NCBI GenBank assembly: GCA_024244705.1 | Contig: JAAEOK010000098.1 | Coordinates: forward strand, 124,001 to 188,000 | Direction: 5' to 3' | DNA: 64,000 nucleotides | Origin: Alphaproteobacteria bacterium | GTDB lineage: Bacteria; Pseudomonadota; Alphaproteobacteria; JAAEOK01 | Shown here: positions 1,950-43,488 of the stretch, piece after piece | How positions within the stretch are numbered: the first letter of the stretch is position 1 | Layout of the letters: each line of letters begins with the position of its first letter | Position numbers and translations under genes: made by a program | Notes under the pieces: generated by a model | Databases searched by the model: none | The model's input: the letters and a program-made list of their open reading frames with translations, nothing else | Told to the model about the DNA's origin: nothing

Positions 1950-4760
1950 TCAATGCGCCTCGGCCCAGTTGTCGCCGACGCCGGCATCGACGACCAGCGG
2001 CACGGAGAGCTCGACCGCGGGTAGCGCCGCCCCTTCCATCACCTGCTTCATCGCCGTGATCGTCGCCTCGACCTCGTCGGCGGCGACCTCGAACAGCAAT
2101 TCGTCGTGGACCTGGAGCAGCATGCTGGCGCCGAGCCCGACTTCGTCGAGCGCGCCGGGCACCCGGATCATCGCCCGCTTGATGATGTCGGCGGCGCCGC
2201 CCTGCAGCGGGGCGTTGATCGCCGCGCGCTCCGAAAAGCCGCGCCGCGCCGGGTTCTTGTCGCGGATGCCGGTGATGTGGATGCGGCGCCCGAACGGCGT
2301 CTCGACATAGCCGTGCTCGCGGCAGAACACCTTCATCGCGTCCATGTAATCGCGGATGCCGGGGTAGCGTTCGAAATACATCTTGATATAGGCCGCCGCC
2401 TCGTCCTGGGGGATGCCGAGATTGTTGGCCAGGCCGTAGGCGCTGATGCCGTAGATGATGCCGAAATTGATCGCCTTGGCGTTGCGCCGGACCATCGGGT
2501 CCATGCCCTCGATCGGCAGGCCGAAGATCTCGCTGGCGGTCATGGCGTGGATGTCGAGCCCGGCATGGAAGGCGTCCTTGAGCGACGCCACATCGGCGAC
2601 ATGGGCCAGCAGGCGCAGCTCGATCTGCGAATAGTCGAGCGAGACCAGCTTGTTGCCCTCGGCGGCGACGAACGCCTCGCGGATCTTGCGCCCGGCTTCC
2701 GTCCGCACCGGAATGTTCTGCAGGTTGGGGTCGGTCGACGACAGCCGGCCGGTCGAGGCGATGGCCATGCCGTAGGAGGTGTGGACGCGGCCGGTGTCGG
2801 GGTTGATGTAGCGCACCAGCGCGTCGGTATACGTGCTCTTGAGCTTGGCCAGTTGGCGGTGATCGAGAATCCGCGCCGGCAAGTCGTGGCCCTGGGCGGC
2901 GAGGCCTTCGAGCACGTCGGCGCCGGTGCCGTAGGCGCCGGTCTTGGTCTTGCGGCCGCCGGAAATGCCCATGCGGTCGAACAGGATCTCACCGAGCTGT
3001 TTCGGCGAGCCGATGTTGAACTCGCCGTCGGCGAGCTTGTAGATTTCCTTCTCGAGGACGCCGAGACGCTTGGTGAAATCCTTGCTCAGCTTTTCGAGGA
3101 CCTTACGGTCGACCAGGATGCCGGCGCATTCCATCGCCACCAAGACGTCGATCAGCGGCCGTTCGATGCGCTCATAGACCGCGGTCTTGTGCGCGGTCGC
3201 GAGCCGCGGCTTGAGCACCTGGTGGAGGCGGAGCGTGATGTCGGCGTCCTCGGCCGCGTAATCGCAGGCCTTGTCGAGCGGCACGTGATCGAAGGTGACC
3301 TGGTCCTTGCCGCTGCCCGCGACTTCCTTGAACTTGATCGTGCGGTGGCCGAGATGGAGCTCGGCGAGTTCATCGAGGCCGTGGCCGTGCATCCCCGCCT
3401 CCAACACATAGGACAACACCATCGTGTCGTCGACCGGCGTCACCGGCACGTCGTAGCGGTGCAATAGCTGCATGTCGTATTTCAGATTGTGCCCGACCTT
3501 GAGGATCGACGGGTCCGCGAGCAGCGGCCGCAGCAGACCGAGCACGGTGTCGAGGGCGATTTGGGGCGGCCGTTCGGTCTCCGACGCCGGGCCGTCGCCA
3601 AGGTCGAGGTTGCCCTGGACGCCGCCGCCCTTGTGGCCCACCGGGATGTAGCAGGCCTCGCCCGGGACCACCGCCATCGAGATGCCGACCAGCTCCGCCT
3701 GCATGGCATCGAGCGACGTCGTTTCCGTGTCGACACCGACGATCCCGGCCGCGTATGCGCGATCGATCCACCGCGTGAGCGCGTCCTCGGTCTGGACCAA
3801 CTCATAGCTCGCATCGCCGGCCGGTGCGCCCGCCGCCGTGCCGCCGGTCGCCTCGACGCCGAGTTCGCTCTCGAGCCGGGCGATGATCGACTTGAAGGCC
3901 TGCTCCTCGAGGAACGGCATGAGGAGCTCCGGGTCGAGCGCGCGCTTGGCGAAATCGTCCAAGGTCTCCGCGACCGGGACGTCGTCCCGCAGGCGCACCA
4001 ACTCCCGCGACATGCGCGCCTGGTCGGCGAACTCGATCAGGTTCTGGCGCCGTTTCGGCTGCTTGATCTCTTCGGCCCGGTCGAGCAACGTATCGAGGTC
4101 GTCATATTCGCCGATTAGCTGCGCCGCGGTCTTGACCCCGATGCCCGGCACCCCCGGCACATTGTCCGTCGAATCGCCGGCGAGCGCCTGGACATCGACG
4201 ACCTTTTCGGGACCGACGCCGAATTTCTCCACCACTTCGTCGGGGCCGATGGCACGGTTGTTGATTGGGTCCATCATGTTGACCCGGCCGTCGACCAGTT
4301 GCATCAGGTCCTTGTCCGACGACACGATGGTGACATCGGAGCCAAGGGCGGCCGCCTGGCGGGCATAGGTCGCGATCAAATCGTCGGCCTCGAAGCCTTC
4401 CATTTCGACGCAGGGCAGGTTCATCGCCCGGGTGGCATCGCGGATCAGGTCGAATTGCGGAATCAGGTCTTCCGGCGGCGCTTCCCGGTTGGCCTTGTAG
4501 TCGGGATAGATGTCGTTGCGGAAATTCTTGCGCGCATGATCGAAGATGACCGCGATGTGGTCGACCTCGGCATCCTTGAGCAGCTTCAGCAGCATGTTGA
4601 TGAAGCCGTAGACCGCGCCCACCGGCGTCCCGTCGGGCCGGTTCATCGGTGTCTTCAACGCATAGTAGGCACGGAAGATATAACCCGACCCGTCGACCAG
4701 GAAGAGGTGCTTGAGCGGCGACTTCTGAGTGGCGGTCACGGGCGTCTCGGCGGCAGTCAT
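1950..4760 (-). CDS. polA: DNA polymerase I
   Basis: 936-residue family A polymerase for Okazaki-fragment processing and repair synthesis. All three activities look intact. The N-terminal 5'-nuclease domain starts at FLVDGSGYIFRAYYAL (about residue 20), with the helix-hairpin-helix GVPGIGVKTAA near 203. The 3'-5' proofreading domain has DTET at 344, GHNLKYD near 423 and YAAEDAD near 501. The polymerase domain has motif A DYSQIELR at 709, motif B RRNAKAINFGIIYG at 758, and motif C QVHDELLFEV near the C-terminus. Length is normal for the family. ATG 4760 is preceded by TGAGG. Upstream on the same strand, 73 nt away, lies the lipoprotein/EI24 pair, so polA may be the last gene of a three-gene transcript. 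Confidence 0.98.
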   Translation of the reverse strand: MTAAETPVTATQKSPLKHLFLVDGSGYIFRAYYALKTPMNRPDGTPVGAVYGFINMLLKLLKDAEVDHIAVIFDHARKNFRNDIYPDYKANREAPPEDLIPQFDLIRDATRAMNLPCVEMEGFEADDLIATYARQAAALGSDVTIVSSDKDLMQLVDGRVNMMDPINNRAIGPDEVVEKFGVGPEKVVDVQALAGDSTDNVPGVPGIGVKTAAQLIGEYDDLDTLLDRAEEIKQPKRRQNLIEFADQARMSRELVRLRDDVPVAETLDDFAKRALDPELLMPFLEEQAFKSIIARLESELGVEATGGTAAGAPAGDASYELVQTEDALTRWIDRAYAAGIVGVDTETTSLDAMQAELVGISMAVVPGEACYIPVGHKGGGVQGNLDLGDGPASETERPPQIALDTVLGLLRPLLADPSILKVGHNLKYDMQLLHRYDVPVTPVDDTMVLSYVLEAGMHGHGLDELAELHLGHRTIKFKEVAGSGKDQVTFDHVPLDKACDYAAEDADITLRLHQVLKPRLATAHKTAVYERIERPLIDVLVAMECAGILVDRKVLEKLSKDFTKRLGVLEKEIYKLADGEFNIGSPKQLGEILFDRMGISGGRKTKTGAYGTGADVLEGLAAQGHDLPARILDHRQLAKLKSTYTDALVRYINPDTGRVHTSYGMAIASTGRLSSTDPNLQNIPVRTEAGRKIREAFVAAEGNKLVSLDYSQIELRLLAHVADVASLKDAFHAGLDIHAMTASEIFGLPIEGMDPMVRRNAKAINFGIIYGISAYGLANNLGIPQDEAAAYIKMYFERYPGIRDYMDAMKVFCREHGYVETPFGRRIHITGIRDKNPARRGFSERAAINAPLQGGAADIIKRAMIRVPGALDEVGLGASMLLQVHDELLFEVAADEVEATITAMKQVMEGAALPAVELSVPLVVDAGVGDNWAEAH

Positions 4761-34444: not shown

Positions 34445-35326
34445 ATGAGCGCCAAATCCCTCGCCCTTCGATTGAGTTATCCGTTGGCGATGTTGGGCGC
34501 CTTCACGGCGTTCGGCCTATTGATGTCGCTGACCGACATCGTCTGGATCGCCGCCTATGGCGCCGGATTGTTCGCCGCCATCTGGGTCACCGGGCATGAG
34601 TTGAGTTTCCCCCATCGCATCGAATGGACGCCGAGCCGCCAAAGCATCGCGACCGATGCGGCCTATATGATCGGCGTCCAGGTTCTCCTGGCGAAGGGCC
34701 TCGCGATTGCCACGGTGGCGGCATTGACGATTTGGTGGACGTCCGACGGCGGCGCGCCGAGCCGGTTATGGCCGCATGACGGACCGATCGTTCTCCAGGT
34801 CGTGTTGATGATCTTGGCGGCCGATTTATTCCGCTACTGGCTGCATATCGCCTGCCACCGCCTCGCCCCGCTGTGGCGATTGCACGCGGTCCACCACTCG
34901 GTAAAACAATTGTACTGGTTGAACGTCGGGCGATTTCATCCCTTCGAAAAATCGATTCAGTTCGTGTTCGATACCCTGCCCTTCATCGTCCTGGGTGTCG
35001 CCGACGAAGTCGTCGCTCTCTATTTTGTCTTCTACGCCGTGAACGGCTTTTTTCAGCATTCCAACTGCGATGTCAGGCTCGGCATTCTCAACCAGATCGT
35101 CGCCGGGCCGGAATTGCACCGCTGGCATCATGCGTTGGACCTTGAGAAGGCGAACCACAATTATGGCAACAACCTGATCGTCTGGGATCGATTGTTCGGC
35201 ACGCGTTACCTACCCGCCGATACGGCGGTCAAAGAACTCGGCTTGGATGAGCCGGCCTATCCGCAATCGTTTCTCGGACAGATGCTCGCACCATTTCGAA
35301 ACAAGGCGCCGGGAACGCAGCGGTGA
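34445..35326 (+). CDS. Sterol desaturase / fatty acid hydroxylase superfamily protein
   Basis: 293-residue integral-membrane di-iron oxygenase expected to hydroxylate or desaturate a lipid chain. The three His clusters of the superfamily are present: H-X3-H (LHIACHR, about residues 134-138), H-X2-HH (LHAVHHS, about 146-150), and the C-terminal HRWHHALDLEKANHNYG (about 222-238), plus QHSN near 205. Several N-terminal membrane spans precede them. Start ATG 34445 has no strong ribosome site, which leaves translation control open. Its stop overlaps the GH3 start (GTGA). It is the first of a three-gene coupled unit unlike the neighbouring housekeeping genes. Confidence 0.88.
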   Translation: MSAKSLALRLSYPLAMLGAFTAFGLLMSLTDIVWIAAYGAGLFAAIWVTGHELSFPHRIEWTPSRQSIATDAAYMIGVQVLLAKGLAIATVAALTIWWTSDGGAPSRLWPHDGPIVLQVVLMILAADLFRYWLHIACHRLAPLWRLHAVHHSVKQLYWLNVGRFHPFEKSIQFVFDTLPFIVLGVADEVVALYFVFYAVNGFFQHSNCDVRLGILNQIVAGPELHRWHHALDLEKANHNYGNNLIVWDRLFGTRYLPADTAVKELGLDEPAYPQSFLGQMLAPFRNKAPGTQR

Positions 35327-36996
35327 TCCCCAATTTCTTGTCGGCCGCCGCGCTGGGCCTCGCAATGACCGCCGTCCGGTGGACGAGCTGGCGACGATTG
35401 ATGGCCGCCAGCAAACAGCCAAGTGACGCACAGGCAGCTGTCCTGCGATCGATCCTAAGACGCCAGGCGGAAACGACGTTCGGCCGCGAACATGGTTTTT
35501 CCACGGTCGCCGATCACGCCGATTTCGCCCGCCAGGTCCCGGTCCAGACCTATGAGACCTTGGCCCCGCTAATCGCTCGCCAACGCACGACCGGCGAGCC
35601 CGCCCTGACGATGGAGCCGCCGGTACGCTATGCACGGACCAGCGGCACCACGGGCGAGCCCAAACTCCTGCCATTGACCGCCGGCGGCATCGAACAGGCG
35701 CGACGGTTGCAGCGCGTCTTCGCATTCCCGCTGTTTCGCGATACCGCCATGTTCGACGGCAGGATCCTGGGTATCGGCGGCGCGGCAATCGAAGACGAAG
35801 TCGATCCCGGCCTGCCGATCGGATCGGTCACCGGGCACATCTATGCGACCATGCCATGGCCGGTGCGGCGCAAATATGTGCTCCCGAGCGAAGTCTTCGG
35901 GATCGAAGATTACGACCAAGAATACTATACGATTGCCTTGCTGGCCCTCGCCGAGAGAAATTTGACCGGCATCGCCACGGCCAATCCGTCAACGATCGTT
36001 CGCGTCATTTCGACAATCGCCGAGAGGTGGGAGGATTTGCTTGCCGACATAGAAGCGGGGACGATTTCGGACAACGCTCTGCTCTCCACCGCCCAGCGCA
36101 CGGCGATCCTAGGGCGGATGATTTCCGACCCGGAGAGAGCCGATACGCTGTCCGCGCGACGCCGGTCCGGAACCCCGGTCATGATCAAGGATCTGTGGCC
36201 CGACCTCAGAGCCGTCGTCACGTGGACGCGGGGAAATTCGGCCATTCCCTTGGCTGCGCTCAGCCGACAATTCCCGGCCGCCACCAAAGTCATAGACGCC
36301 GGCTACATCGCCAGCGAACTGCGCGCGACGATCGCGGTCAATCCGTCGGAAGACGGCACGATGCCGCTTTTGAATGAACATTTCTTGGAATTCGTCGAGC
36401 GCAACGAGCGCGGATCCGGGGGCGGAGATTTCAAAACCGTCGACCGCCTGGAAGGCGGGCGCCAATATTATGTTTTCGTGACCACCGGTGATGGGCTCTA
36501 CCGCTACGACATGAATGACATCGTAGAGGTGACGGGCCGGTTCAACGCGACGCCGCTTCTGTCATTCGTGCAAAAGGGGCAGGGCATAACCAACATCACC
36601 GGAGAAAAGCTTTCGGAAGCGCAAGTCATCGAAGCGGTGACCGCGGCCGCGAAGCAATTTTCCTTGAGCCCGGCATTTCTCCTGATGCTGGCCGACGCCG
36701 AGCATGCGACCTACCGCCTCTATGTCGAGGCGGAGGCCGGCCGGCCGGCGACGGATGAATTCGCCGGGATCGTCGAGGTGCAATTGCAGGCGCTCAATAT
36801 CGAATATCGCGAGAAGCGCCGAAGCGGCAGACTGTGCCCGGTCGTCTGCCGCTGGCTCCGTGTCGGGACGGCGGCGGACTATCGTCGATTTTGCGTCGCC
36901 GGCGGACAGCAGGACGCCCAGTTCAAAATACTGGCATTGCAAAATCGCCGGGATCTGACCTTCGACATAGATCGCCACGTGGCATCGGGAATATGA
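35323..36996 (+). CDS. GH3 family acyl-acid-amido synthetase
   Basis: 557-residue member of the GH3 branch of the adenylate-forming (ANL) superfamily; plant relatives conjugate auxin or jasmonate to amino acids, bacterial ones are little studied. Motifs: the ATP loop YARTSGTTGEPKLLPLT (about residues 102-118, motif I), and VFVTTGDGLYRYDMNDIVEVTG (about 385-406, equivalent to the plant 'T..GLYRYR.GD' motif), followed by NITGEKLSEAQV, where the C-terminal domain begins. Start is GTG 35323, overlapping the hydroxylase stop, and its own stop overlaps the next gene (ATGA 36993-36996). Likely activates a carboxylic (perhaps hydroxylated fatty) acid and joins it to an amine or amino acid; the partners are inference. 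Confidence 0.92.
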   Translation: MIPNFLSAAALGLAMTAVRWTSWRRLMAASKQPSDAQAAVLRSILRRQAETTFGREHGFSTVADHADFARQVPVQTYETLAPLIARQRTTGEPALTMEPPVRYARTSGTTGEPKLLPLTAGGIEQARRLQRVFAFPLFRDTAMFDGRILGIGGAAIEDEVDPGLPIGSVTGHIYATMPWPVRRKYVLPSEVFGIEDYDQEYYTIALLALAERNLTGIATANPSTIVRVISTIAERWEDLLADIEAGTISDNALLSTAQRTAILGRMISDPERADTLSARRRSGTPVMIKDLWPDLRAVVTWTRGNSAIPLAALSRQFPAATKVIDAGYIASELRATIAVNPSEDGTMPLLNEHFLEFVERNERGSGGGDFKTVDRLEGGRQYYVFVTTGDGLYRYDMNDIVEVTGRFNATPLLSFVQKGQGITNITGEKLSEAQVIEAVTAAAKQFSLSPAFLLMLADAEHATYRLYVEAEAGRPATDEFAGIVEVQLQALNIEYREKRRSGRLCPVVCRWLRVGTAADYRRFCVAGGQQDAQFKILALQNRRDLTFDIDRHVASGI

Positions 36997-38108
36997 GACT
37001 CGCGGCCCTTGAATTGCGCCGATTCGCGGTCCGGTTTCGCACCCCCGTGGCCCACGCGGCCGCGACCCGCCGGCAGACGAGCAACATTATCGTCATCGCC
37101 CGGGGCGCCGACGGATCCGTGGGCTTCGGCGAGGGCTGTCCGCGGCCCTACGTGACCGGGGAGAGCGAGCACAGCGCCGCTTCCTTCGTTGCCGCGGCCG
37201 CCGATGATGTGATCGCCAACGTCACCGATCTTGACGATCTCCGCGCGTGGATCGACGCCCATGAAGCGGATATCGATGACAACCCCGCCGCGTTTGCGGC
37301 TTTGGAGCTGGCGATACTCGATTTGCTGGCGCGGCAGGATACACAACCCGTTGAGACGCTTCTTGGCCTACTTGGACCAACGCGGGCGTTCCGCTACTCG
37401 GCGGTGGTCGGAGACAGCAGCGCGACGAAACTGGTTTTGCGCCTGCTACGATATCGCTTGGCGGGCTTCGCCGATTTCAAGATCAAGATAATCGCCGACG
37501 CGACACGCGACCGCAGAAAGGAAGCGCTCCTGCGGCTGATCCATGGAACCGGATGTCGCCTCCGGGCGGATGCCAACAACGCCTGGTCGGACGCCGAAGG
37601 CTTTATCCGCGATCTCGGTCCAATGAAGGACCTGTTCGTTGCGATCGAAGAGCCGGTCAAGGCCGGGGACTTGGATGGCTGCCGGTCCATCGCCAAGGCG
37701 CTTCGGGTCCGCATCGTCCTCGATGAGAGCCTCTGCAGATTGGCTCAGGCCGAGGCGCTTTCGCGGGATCCCGAAACGTGGATTGCCAACATCCGGGTGT
37801 CAAAAATGGGTGGCCTCATTCGTTCGCTGAGGGTCGCCGATCGGCTGGTATCGATGGGCGTGACCCTGATCGTGGGCGCCCAGGTCGGCGAGACGAGCCT
37901 GCTGACACGAGCCGGCCTGGCCGTCGCGGCAGCGCATCAAGAGCATCTATTCGCGCAGGAGGGCGCCTTCGGCACCCACTTGCTGGCGCACGACCTTTGC
38001 GACCCGCCAGTGATGTTCGGCCGCCGCGGATTGTTGGCCGACGCCGGGGCGATCTTGAAGCGACCGGGATGGGGGGTCGAAGTGCGGCAGGAACGTCTCA
38101 CCGATTGA
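36993..38108 (+). CDS. Enolase-superfamily enzyme, dipeptide-epimerase-like (MLE subgroup)
   Basis: 371-residue enzyme of the muconate-lactonizing subgroup. All catalytic positions are visible and correctly spaced: K-X-K in FADFKIKII (about residues 161-163), metal ligands Asp in RADANNAW (~191), Glu in AIEEPVKAG (~219), Asp in VLDESLC (~243), and the opposing base Lys in IRVSKMGGL (~270). The 20s-loop/capping part (VGFGEGCPRPYVTGES) resembles L-Ala-D/L-Glu epimerases. This predicts 1,1-proton transfer on an amino-acid- or amide-containing substrate. It is the third coupled gene after the GH3 synthetase, so its substrate may be the amide made by that enzyme. Confidence 0.88.
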   Translation: MRLAALELRRFAVRFRTPVAHAAATRRQTSNIIVIARGADGSVGFGEGCPRPYVTGESEHSAASFVAAAADDVIANVTDLDDLRAWIDAHEADIDDNPAAFAALELAILDLLARQDTQPVETLLGLLGPTRAFRYSAVVGDSSATKLVLRLLRYRLAGFADFKIKIIADATRDRRKEALLRLIHGTGCRLRADANNAWSDAEGFIRDLGPMKDLFVAIEEPVKAGDLDGCRSIAKALRVRIVLDESLCRLAQAEALSRDPETWIANIRVSKMGGLIRSLRVADRLVSMGVTLIVGAQVGETSLLTRAGLAVAAAHQEHLFAQEGAFGTHLLAHDLCDPPVMFGRRGLLADAGAILKRPGWGVEVRQERLTD

Positions 38109-38150: not shown

Positions 38151-39056
38151 CTAGCCCTCGATGACACCAAAGGCCCGCGCCCGCTCGAGCAGTCGCCTGG
38201 CGTTGTGCACCGACGGAACCTCAATCAGATTTCCATCCACTTCGACCCGGTCGACACCGTCGGCGCGAGCCCGTTCGAAAGCGGTGACCATCGCTCCGGC
38301 TCGATCGACCTCGGACTGGCTGGGCGTCAGGATTCGGTTGACGACGACGGCATGCGACGCCATGACCGCGCTTTTCGCGGTGTAGCCGAGACGGCGCGCG
38401 GTCCTGGCCTCGGCTTCGACACCGGCCTCGTCGGACCAGGTATAGGGACAATCCACCGACACCACACCGGCGGCAACGCATTCGAGATGGAAGCGCGCCC
38501 TGACATAGGCCAGCTCCTGTCCGTCGCGGCCGCGCTCGGCGCCGAGGTCGGCGGCCATATCCTCGCTCGCCACCAGACAGGCGGTGACGCGCGGGCTCGA
38601 CACGGCGATCGCGTGGGTCTGCATCAGGCCCTGGGCCGATTCGATATTGGGCAACAATTCGGTGCTGCCGGAGGGCAAGCCAAAGCGATCCTCGAGGTCG
38701 GTCACCGCGCGGTCCAAATCGCGCACCTGTTCCGGTGTCGAAACCTTGGGCAGCGCGACCAGGTGGGGGGCCGCCGCCATCACCGCCTCGAGATCATCAC
38801 ACCCGCCGTCCCAGAACGGATTGATCCGAACGCCGGCGACGGCCTGCGCGGCTTTCCAGGCGGCGACGACTTCGCCGCACAGCGCCCGGGCCTCGCCGCG
38901 CCGGCCGCGGGGCACGAAGTCCTCCATCTCCTGTATCAGGACGTCGGCCTGCGAAGCCGGCCCGGAAAGTAGCATTTCCCGCTCGGCGCCGGGCACGAAC
39001 AGCCAGCTTCGTCGCAGGGCCGGCGGTCGGCGATCACGTTGATTTGCATTTGACAT
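38151..39056 (-). CDS. HpcH/HpaI aldolase / citrate lyase beta-like protein
   Basis: 301-residue CitE-like TIM-barrel lyase that cleaves or forms C-C bonds of CoA thioesters or keto acids. Family motifs: RRSWLFVPGAEREML (about residues 15-29), VLIQEMEDFVPRGRR with the conserved Glu-Asp, RINPFWDGGCDDL, ELLPNIESAQGLM (metal-binding Glu), and TACLVASEDMAADLGAERG (metal-binding Asp). It converges with the GH3-epimerase unit across 42 nt and diverges from the Bax-like gene. Start uncertain: ATG at 39056 is used, but 39065 and 39071 are in frame and none has a strong ribosome site. Substrate unknown; it may act on malyl-CoA-type thioesters like its relatives. Confidence 0.88.
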   Translation of the reverse strand: MSNANQRDRRPPALRRSWLFVPGAEREMLLSGPASQADVLIQEMEDFVPRGRRGEARALCGEVVAAWKAAQAVAGVRINPFWDGGCDDLEAVMAAAPHLVALPKVSTPEQVRDLDRAVTDLEDRFGLPSGSTELLPNIESAQGLMQTHAIAVSSPRVTACLVASEDMAADLGAERGRDGQELAYVRARFHLECVAAGVVSVDCPYTWSDEAGVEAEARTARRLGYTAKSAVMASHAVVVNRILTPSQSEVDRAGAMVTAFERARADGVDRVEVDGNLIEVPSVHNARRLLERARAFGVIEG

Positions 39057-39122
39057 CGGCCTCATTCCCATAATTTGTAGGGCAGTATTTCTCGCCGCCA
39101 AGAAGATTGCCCGCGCAGACCA

Positions 39123-40085
39123 ATGTCGCCGCAACCGCGTTCGAAATCCAAGACCCATTCGACCTCGATCCGGCACCGCCGGATGGTGATCGGCGGCGGC
39201 ATCGTCCTGGTTATCGGCCTGGCCGTCGGTTTCTGGGTTGTCTATCAGGGTCTGAGCGAGGATTTGCGCATCCAATGGGCGCGCACCACGCCGCCTTTTG
39301 TCGGCGATCTCGCCGTCGCCAAACCCCGCGGAATAGTCTTGCCGCGCGCCGCCGACGCCGCCGAATTGCTGGCCGTCATCGACCTCGATGCGGTCCGCGA
39401 ACAGGGCGCCACGGTGCCGACATTTTACCTCGCCAAGATCCCCGATGACCTGCTCGAGTTCGCCGAGAGCAACGACCAGAAGCAATTGTTCTTCAAGTTC
39501 ATGTTGCCGATCGTGCTCAAGGTCAATGCCGAGATCGCCCGATTGCGGGACCGGCTGCTGTTCATCAAGAATCGCCGCAACGGTGTCCTATTGCCCGAAG
39601 ACCAGGAATTCATCGATCGCCTGGGCGACTGGTACGGCGTCAAGGACGGCGACCTCGACGAGCTGATCCGCCGCGTCGACGCGGTGCCGCCGTCGCTGGC
39701 CCTGGCCCAGGCCTTGGAGGAAAGCGGCTGGGGCATGTCACGCTTTGCGCGGATCGCCAACGCTTTGTTCGGCCAGCATGCGTTTCGGCCCGGCCGGCCG
39801 CAAGTGCCGCATCCGGTCGACGGGACGCCGCCGATCCGAGCGTTTCCCGATCTCATCAGCTCGATCAGCGCCTATATGCACAACCTCAATACACACAAGG
39901 CCTATGAGGAATTCCGAGCGCTGCGCGGACAGGCGCGGGATGGGGGCCAACCGCTCGACGGCAATATGCTGGCGGCGGCGCTGGTCCGTTATTCCGAGCG
40001 CGGCGAAGACTATATAGCGACAATCCAGAACCACATCGCCGCCAACCGGTTGAAACAGTTCGACAAAGCAAGCCTTGCCGAGTAG
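39123..40085 (+). CDS. Bax-like membrane-anchored N-acetylglucosaminidase
   Basis: 320-residue protein with an N-terminal membrane anchor (MVIGGGIVLVIGLAVGFWVVY, about residues 21-41) and a periplasmic glucosaminidase domain (Pfam family of Bax and autolysins). The catalytic-Glu segment is PSLALAQALEESGWGMSRFARIANALFGQ (about residues 190-218). Further family features: IRAFPDLISSISAYMHNLNTHKAYEEFRALR and VRYSERGEDYIATIQNHIAANRL. It probably trims peptidoglycan glycan strands. The ATG start lies in a short gap divergent from the CitE-like gene. Confidence 0.9.
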   Translation: MSPQPRSKSKTHSTSIRHRRMVIGGGIVLVIGLAVGFWVVYQGLSEDLRIQWARTTPPFVGDLAVAKPRGIVLPRAADAAELLAVIDLDAVREQGATVPTFYLAKIPDDLLEFAESNDQKQLFFKFMLPIVLKVNAEIARLRDRLLFIKNRRNGVLLPEDQEFIDRLGDWYGVKDGDLDELIRRVDAVPPSLALAQALEESGWGMSRFARIANALFGQHAFRPGRPQVPHPVDGTPPIRAFPDLISSISAYMHNLNTHKAYEEFRALRGQARDGGQPLDGNMLAAALVRYSERGEDYIATIQNHIAANRLKQFDKASLAE

Positions 40086-42654: not shown

Positions 42655-43488
42655 ATGACAGCTGCAGAAGAAAGTGGCATTCCTATGGAATCGACTGCCC
42701 CATCGGAGACCAAGACCGTTCACGTCCGTTCCGGCAACCTCGAAATGCGGCTCGCCCAGACGACGGATGAAGTCGCGGCGGCGCAAGCCCTGCGTTATCG
42801 GGTGTTCTACGACGAAATGAAGGCCCAACCGACGCCCGAGATGGCGGCGCAGCACCGCGATTTTGACCATTTCGACGCTTATTGCGATCATTTGCTGACC
42901 ATCGACCACGACCGCGGCACGGGGCCCGAATCGGTTGTCGGCACCTATCGGCTGTTGCGTCGCGAGGCGGCCGATCGCGCCGGCGGGTTCTATACGGCGG
43001 ACGAATTCGACATCGACAAGCTGTTGGCGATGCCGGGTGAAATTATCGAGCCCGGGCGTTCCTGCGTCGATGCCGCCTACCGCAACCGGCCGACTCTTTC
43101 ACTGCTTTGGAATGGACTCGCCGCCTACTGCCTGCATTACGGCGGCACCTTGTTCTTTGGCTGCGGTAGTCTGCACAGCACCGATCCGGAAAAGCTCGCC
43201 GTGCCGTTGAGCTACCTCTACCATTATCATTTGGCGCCGGAATCGATGCGTCCGCGCGCGGTTCAAAGCCGCTATGTCGATATGAACATACTGCCGCGGG
43301 AAAAGGTTGATCCGCGCAAGGCGATCGCCGAATTGCCGCCGCTGCTGAAGGGCTATCTGTGGGCCGGTGGATTCGTCGGCGACGGCGCCGTGATCGACGA
43401 GCAGTTCAATACCGTTGACGTCTGCATCGTCGTCAAGACCGACCTGGTCACCGATCGGTATCTCAAACGGTTCGCGGGCAACGAATAG
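42655..43488 (+). CDS. olsB: L-ornithine N(alpha)-acyltransferase (OlsB-like GNAT)
   Basis: 277-residue acyltransferase that moves a 3-hydroxyacyl chain from ACP to ornithine, giving lyso-ornithine lipid. Family features: LEMRLAQTTDEVAAAQALRYRVFYDEM, FDAYCDHLLTID, VVGTYRLLRREAA, EPGRSCVDAAYRNRPTLSLLWNGLAAYCLHY (about residues 136-166), and FFGCGSLHSTDP. The next gene is an OlsA/PlsC-type acyltransferase, which completes the two-step pathway. It lies 28 nt after fur, probably in the same transcript. Confidence 0.9.
   Translation: MTAAEESGIPMESTAPSETKTVHVRSGNLEMRLAQTTDEVAAAQALRYRVFYDEMKAQPTPEMAAQHRDFDHFDAYCDHLLTIDHDRGTGPESVVGTYRLLRREAADRAGGFYTADEFDIDKLLAMPGEIIEPGRSCVDAAYRNRPTLSLLWNGLAAYCLHYGGTLFFGCGSLHSTDPEKLAVPLSYLYHYHLAPESMRPRAVQSRYVDMNILPREKVDPRKAIAELPPLLKGYLWAGGFVGDGAVIDEQFNTVDVCIVVKTDLVTDRYLKRFAGNE

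Follow-up and report, generated by a model that had tools for sequence, protein, structure and literature searches.

What do a membrane hydroxylase, a GH3-type amide synthetase and an enolase-superfamily epimerase make together, if anything, when their genes overlap end to end? This question is raised by a stretch of 64,000 nucleotides (the window; contig JAAEOK010000098.1 of GenBank assembly GCA_024244705.1, positions 124,001 to 188,000) from an alphaproteobacterial assembly of 4.5 Mb (G000, window on contig C98), in which the three genes, here called the trio, follow one another on the same strand. By comparing gene content, neighborhoods, phylogenies and predicted structures, we found that the trio is a real conserved unit, inherited together and partly fused. 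From its enzyme families, the case that it is dedicated to making a modified N-acyl amino acid, an amino lipid, appears evenly balanced.

A conserved and co-inherited gene unit

GH3 genes are found in 47 of 385 alphaproteobacterial genomes, two of which encode proteins close to the window GH3 (46% and 41% identity), the others scoring at most 71 bits. One of the two (G207) has all three trio genes, whose products are 46-50% identical to those of the window, in another location between an AmpD-like amidase gene and mraZ; the second has the GH3 and epimerase genes at a contig start. A wider scan, of 84,980 species genomes, yielded 24 loci with GH3; two further trio loci came from another set of 398 Pseudomonadota genomes, in which seven genomes had weaker GH3 matches and no trio. 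Wherever the flanking DNA of a trio-clade locus is long enough, the three genes are all present and their order does not vary; these loci belong to alpha-, gamma- and one beta-labelled proteobacteria. Hydroxylase and epimerase genes are both present at 14 of 14 trio-clade GH3 loci with flanks; among the proteobacterial GH3 loci outside this clade, the count is 0 of 16 (Fisher p 7e-9, of descriptive value only, since related genomes are treated as independent and shared ancestry is ignored). The original prediction would have been abandoned had the three families rarely been neighbors in other genomes, and they often are.

The three proteins also share a history, since their pairwise distances correlate (r 0.80, 0.74 and 0.73), at values that none of 2000 permutations reached. 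A phylogenetic tree of GH3 proteins, which left out L119 and L120, groups 13 trio proteins in a single clade (support 100/100), distinct from the alphaproteobacterial OlsH-like clade. Moreover, hydroxylase and GH3 form a single reading frame of 855-899 amino acids in L051, L056, L057 (Marinobacterium profundum) and L119, and Pfam detects PF04116 together with GH3 domains in one M. profundum protein. This fusion strongly indicates a shared pathway for the two enzymes, with GH3 active at the membrane. In eight loci, a conserved putative membrane protein of 150-160 amino acids is encoded directly upstream of the trio, with apparently four helices as counted by eye from the sequence and no relative in Pfam, NCBIfam or PDB. 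It is absent from the window genome and has a copy elsewhere in G207 and G385.

GH3 and MLE-subgroup genes are also neighbors in Omnitrophota, actinobacteria and one uncultured bacterium, in some cases together with an alpha/beta hydrolase gene. Distant relatives combine GH3 with an MLE enzyme and alpha/beta hydrolases (L059, L071) or with an MLE enzyme (L058), and the pairing of GH3 with MLE thus extends beyond the trio. The actinobacterial MLE enzymes adjoining GH3 at L069:8534-10657 and L070:9624-11666 have an extra N-terminal region of about 290 amino acids without a Pfam match, and an ATP-grasp ligase adjoins the L070 set. We also considered a plasmid collection as a source of the same unit; its GH3 proteins are only 20-31% identical and stand in different contexts (a Streptomyces polyketide synthase, a Citrobacter radical-SAM set). 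In the latter (L075:5983-13470, Citrobacter plasmid NZ_CP134684), a divergent GH3 gene, four radical SAM genes and a gene for an N-acetyltransferase together form an unrelated-looking, natural-product-like cluster.

Enzyme families and catalytic residues

The window GH3 protein matches all three GH3 domains (PF03321/PF23571/PF23572 at 2e-60/2e-15/7e-12), and the motifs TSGTTG, GY(I/M/V)xSE and GL(Y/L)RY are conserved. Its structure is predicted with a pLDDT of 88, and its profile matches plant GH3 structures at E 2e-52. The closest named bacterial family is OlsH (NF052613), at 80.4 bits compared to a cut-off of 620 bits, which places the protein outside OlsH proper. OlsH is thought to join ornithine and a fatty acid with ATP into N-acyl-ornithine, and prefers non-hydroxylated fatty acids (PMC12493201, JBC 2025). 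Judged from its sequence, the window GH3 very likely forms an amide, which is the safest step of the pathway proposed below. Pfam detects no alpha/beta hydrolase adjoining the window trio and thus no OlsI in its operon, and no OlsI scores above cut-off in any trio genome searched. We looked for OlsI or another O-acyltransferase within the unit and found none; weak matches to the OlsI model occur elsewhere in trio genomes, but control genomes match too.

The window epimerase matches PF13378/PF02746 at 1.5e-27/6e-9, and the residues that define the MLE subgroup (K163xK165, D193, E219, D244 and K271) are invariant in 12 of 12 epimerases. Its predicted structure is an enolase barrel (pLDDT 89.5), with 3jva, 2p88 and 1jpm as the nearest solved structures. 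In structure comparison by VIA-align, Z is 42.7 to 2p88, with dipeptide epimerases, N-succinyl-Arg/Lys racemase and muconate cycloisomerases tied, so that the fold comparison is uninformative on the substrate. The catalytic di-lysine pair is present, though it is common to other MLE enzymes. In dipeptide epimerases, a DxD motif binds the dipeptide ammonium. By this criterion, combined with alignments made here, the trio enzymes fall outside the AEE type of dipeptide epimerases, since A/G/V-x-E replaces the motif in 12 of 12 compared to DLD in 3jva and 3rit. Thus, the dipeptide-epimerase label given originally is not retained, and N-acyl-amino-acid-racemase-like describes the enzyme better. Enzymes of the MLE racemase/epimerase kind abstract the alpha proton beside an amide (PMC8142540), and an amide is just what the GH3 protein would make. 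The epimerase probably acts on an N-acyl amino acid.

Ten His residues of the hydroxylase, comprising the di-iron clusters of PF04116, are invariant in 11 of 11 homologues. The only NCBIfam match of the window enzyme is OlsE (NF052566, over 12-287), and the same model gives trio hydroxylases 153-203 bits, all under its cut-off of 475 bits. They are therefore not members of OlsE, and the window hydroxylase appears to be its divergent cousin. OlsE hydroxylates the ornithine headgroup (PMC11631085, PMC3972451), at C4 of ornithine according to the title of a reference cited in PMC11631085. As the original prediction had it, catalytic motifs are complete in all three proteins: the conserved His, the GH3 motifs and the KxK/D/E/D/K set all recur in our alignments.

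Proposed pathway and competing readings

The substrates, the order of steps and the lipid nature of the product are what we infer in the following pathway. With ATP, GH3 would adenylate a free fatty acid and then acylate an amino acid at its alpha-amine, just as OlsH acylates ornithine. The membrane hydroxylase would then hydroxylate the conjugate, most likely at the amino-acid headgroup, as OlsE does, or possibly at the acyl chain, where a hydroxyl would offer an O-acylation site lacking in the free fatty acid. By analogy, we lean slightly toward the headgroup. Finally, the MLE epimerase, whose catalytic lysines flank the alpha carbon on either face, would invert or racemize the N-acyl amino acid into a D-configured or DL product. 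Acyl-chain oxidation as the opening step, which the original prediction proposed, is not the favored order, because OlsE, the best precedent for the hydroxylase, modifies the amino-acid headgroup only once the lipid is complete. We suggest more tentatively, and consider it rather doubtful, that the trio makes a bacterial amino lipid of a new class, with a headgroup both hydroxylated and stereochemically inverted by a coupled or fused hydroxylase-GH3 and a dedicated MLE racemase, parallel to OlsBA and OlsH.

Several points weigh against a racemized amino lipid. The hydroxylase and GH3 scores lie far under the equivalog cut-offs of OlsE and OlsH; the end product is perhaps not a membrane lipid, since no O-acyltransferase is found in the unit; and the MLE enzyme may instead perform cycloisomerization or elimination, as its modeled fold is equally close to muconate cycloisomerases. 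A dehydratase or cyclase would fit a hydroxylase that supplies a beta-hydroxyl on the N-acyl amino acid as leaving group. Water would then be lost by syn-elimination, the reaction type of OSBS and 3-hydroxyproline dehydratase, and the product would be the amide of a dehydro-amino acid or a cyclic compound. Bit scores are similar for the MLE models of OSBS, muconate cycloisomerase and cis-3-hydroxyproline dehydratase, and the folds are tied. However, the lysines on both faces in 12 of 12 enzymes are racemase-like, although OSBS keeps both too, and C4, the site named for OlsE in the reference title mentioned above, is not the beta carbon. We therefore regard elimination or cyclization as improbable. 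A similarly low probability attaches to GH3 conjugating a small non-fatty acid, hormone-like or aromatic, in a detoxification, signaling or small-natural-product pathway. The GH3 relatives of known structure come from plants and act on jasmonate, auxin and benzoate, and actinobacterial GH3 genes sit with polyketide synthases. In the trio, however, GH3 is paired with a membrane hydroxylase whose family acts on lipids and which is fused to it in four genomes, and the closest characterized bacterial GH3, OlsH, takes long-chain fatty acids (PMC12493201).

Ornithine lipid offers another explanation, in which the hydroxylase acts on the lipid made by OlsBA while GH3 and epimerase salvage or remodel it. 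The hydroxylase matches OlsE, and OlsB-like and OlsA-like genes lie about 5 kb downstream of the trio in the window, suggesting that the organism probably makes ornithine lipid via OlsBA. However, these genes belong to an ordinary backbone (nfu-tsaB-rimI-fur-olsB-olsA-miaB-phoH), and the same genome has a much closer OlsE homologue on contig C77 (353.5 bits, compared to about 172 for the trio hydroxylase) and a near-OlsH GH3 on contig C110 (555 bits, cut-off 620) that falls in the alphaproteobacterial OlsH-like clade. With its own OlsBA, a closer OlsE and a near-OlsH present, the trio product is probably other than ordinary ornithine lipid. Moreover, five proteobacterial trio genomes (G387-G390, G394) have no match to PF13444 (OlsB), although some of them are metagenome-assembled, and a general dependence on OlsBA is rejected. 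The trio appears to be independent of OlsBA and not redundant with it, and a role in modifying ornithine lipid is the least probable of these alternatives. Beside the near-OlsH GH3 gene (L040:698-4556, contig C110) is a penicillin-acylase-family gene (PF01804), whose product could hydrolyze N-acyl amides. The preferred reading thus remains a modified N-acyl amino acid made by GH3, hydroxylase and racemase.

Genomic setting and relation to known systems

Features are listed below; the coordinates and overlaps of the three same-strand genes agree with those first predicted. The sampled relatives of the host genome include none closer than the same class. In these relatives, usp and nfu are adjacent in about a dozen of 29 nfu loci, so that the trio interrupts a common backbone, and its description as an accessory insertion between usp and nfu stands. 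Between the trio and nfu there are also a gene for an HpcH/CitE-family lyase and one for a protein with a glucosaminidase domain, the lyase gene being next to the trio; it is not among the genes common to the flanks of other trio loci. A promoter and terminator scan was uninformative, with no promoter-like site and with terminator-like matches inside genes.

Features of the trio locus (window positions) and of related loci (locus:positions)
Feature	Coordinates	Strand	Evidence
PF04116 di-iron membrane hydroxylase, OlsE-like, 293 aa (amino acids)	34445..35326 (ATG 34445 to TGA 35326)	+	PF04116 6e-29; NF052566 172.8 bits; ten invariant His
GTGA overlap, hydroxylase stop / GH3 start	35323..35326	+	direct sequence reading
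GH3-type acyl acid amido synthetase (ANL adenylating enzyme), OlsH-related, separate clade, 557 aa	35323..36996 (GTG start)	+	PF03321 2e-60; own clade 100/100
ATGA overlap, GH3 stop / epimerase start	36993..36996	+	direct sequence reading
Enolase-superfamily (MLE subgroup) epimerase, N-acyl-amino-acid-racemase-like, 371 aa	36993..38108 (ATG start)	+	PF13378/PF02746
HpcH/CitE-family lyase gene	38154-39146	-
OlsB-like	42655-43488		291.9 bits, cut-off 320
OlsA-like	ends 44483		276 bits, cut-off 300
Upstream putative membrane protein	L062:6605-7054
Upstream putative membrane protein	L051:4033-4500
Upstream putative membrane protein	L053:6629-7111
Upstream putative membrane protein	L055:6645-7124
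Upstream putative membrane protein	L057:6643-7104
Upstream putative membrane protein	L065:6569-7051
Upstream putative membrane protein	L119:8905-9375
Upstream putative membrane protein	L054, about 3340-3882

The combination of hydroxylase, epimerase and GH3 was not found in the largely open-access literature on bacterial GH3 clusters or in the reviews covered, and the words "epimerase", "racemase" and "hydroxylase" are absent from the main text of PMC12493201. The original view that no bacterial pathway with this gene set had been described therefore stands for the full set, but not for its chemistry: GH3-dependent amino-lipid synthesis has been known since 2025 through OlsH (PMC12493201), and the trio is not a new category. 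Overall, the core of that prediction, a conserved coupled trio with intact catalytic motifs, was sound, while its epimerase label and step order are revised and OlsH had been overlooked. The reviews covered describe no D-configured or epimerized amino lipid, so that a dedicated racemase acting on a lipid-linked amide would be a new chemical step. Most bacterial GH3 functions are open, and the authors of the OlsH study expect other amino acids and products (PMC12493201); the trio gives one GH3 clade a defined set of partners and a testable product. If the pathway is true, it could provide a biomarker or an enzyme set for surfactants.

Among known systems, the OlsH-OlsI pathway of planctomycetes (Singulisphaera acidiphila; PMC12493201) resembles the trio in having a GH3-type synthetase thought to make an N-acyl amino acid with ATP, in an operon with lipid-modifying partners. 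In contrast, the trio GH3 belongs to another clade (80 versus 620 bits) and is accompanied by a hydroxylase and an MLE epimerase in place of OlsI/OlsG. OlsE of rhizobia is likewise a PF04116 membrane di-iron hydroxylase, which the trio enzyme matches over nearly its full length, whereas the trio hydroxylase is fused to or overlaps GH3 and shares its genome with the closer OlsE. The MLE-subgroup dipeptide epimerases (3jva, 3rit, 1jpm) have the same fold, the KxK/D/E/D/K set and about 22-28% identity, but the trio enzymes lack their DxD motif. The trio epimerase has the fold and the di-lysine pair of N-succinyl-Arg/Lys racemase (2p88) and of the N-acylamino acid racemases (1sja, 2zc8), and would likewise act beside an amide; it differs from them by a low identity (about 20-23%) and by its association with GH3 and hydroxylase.

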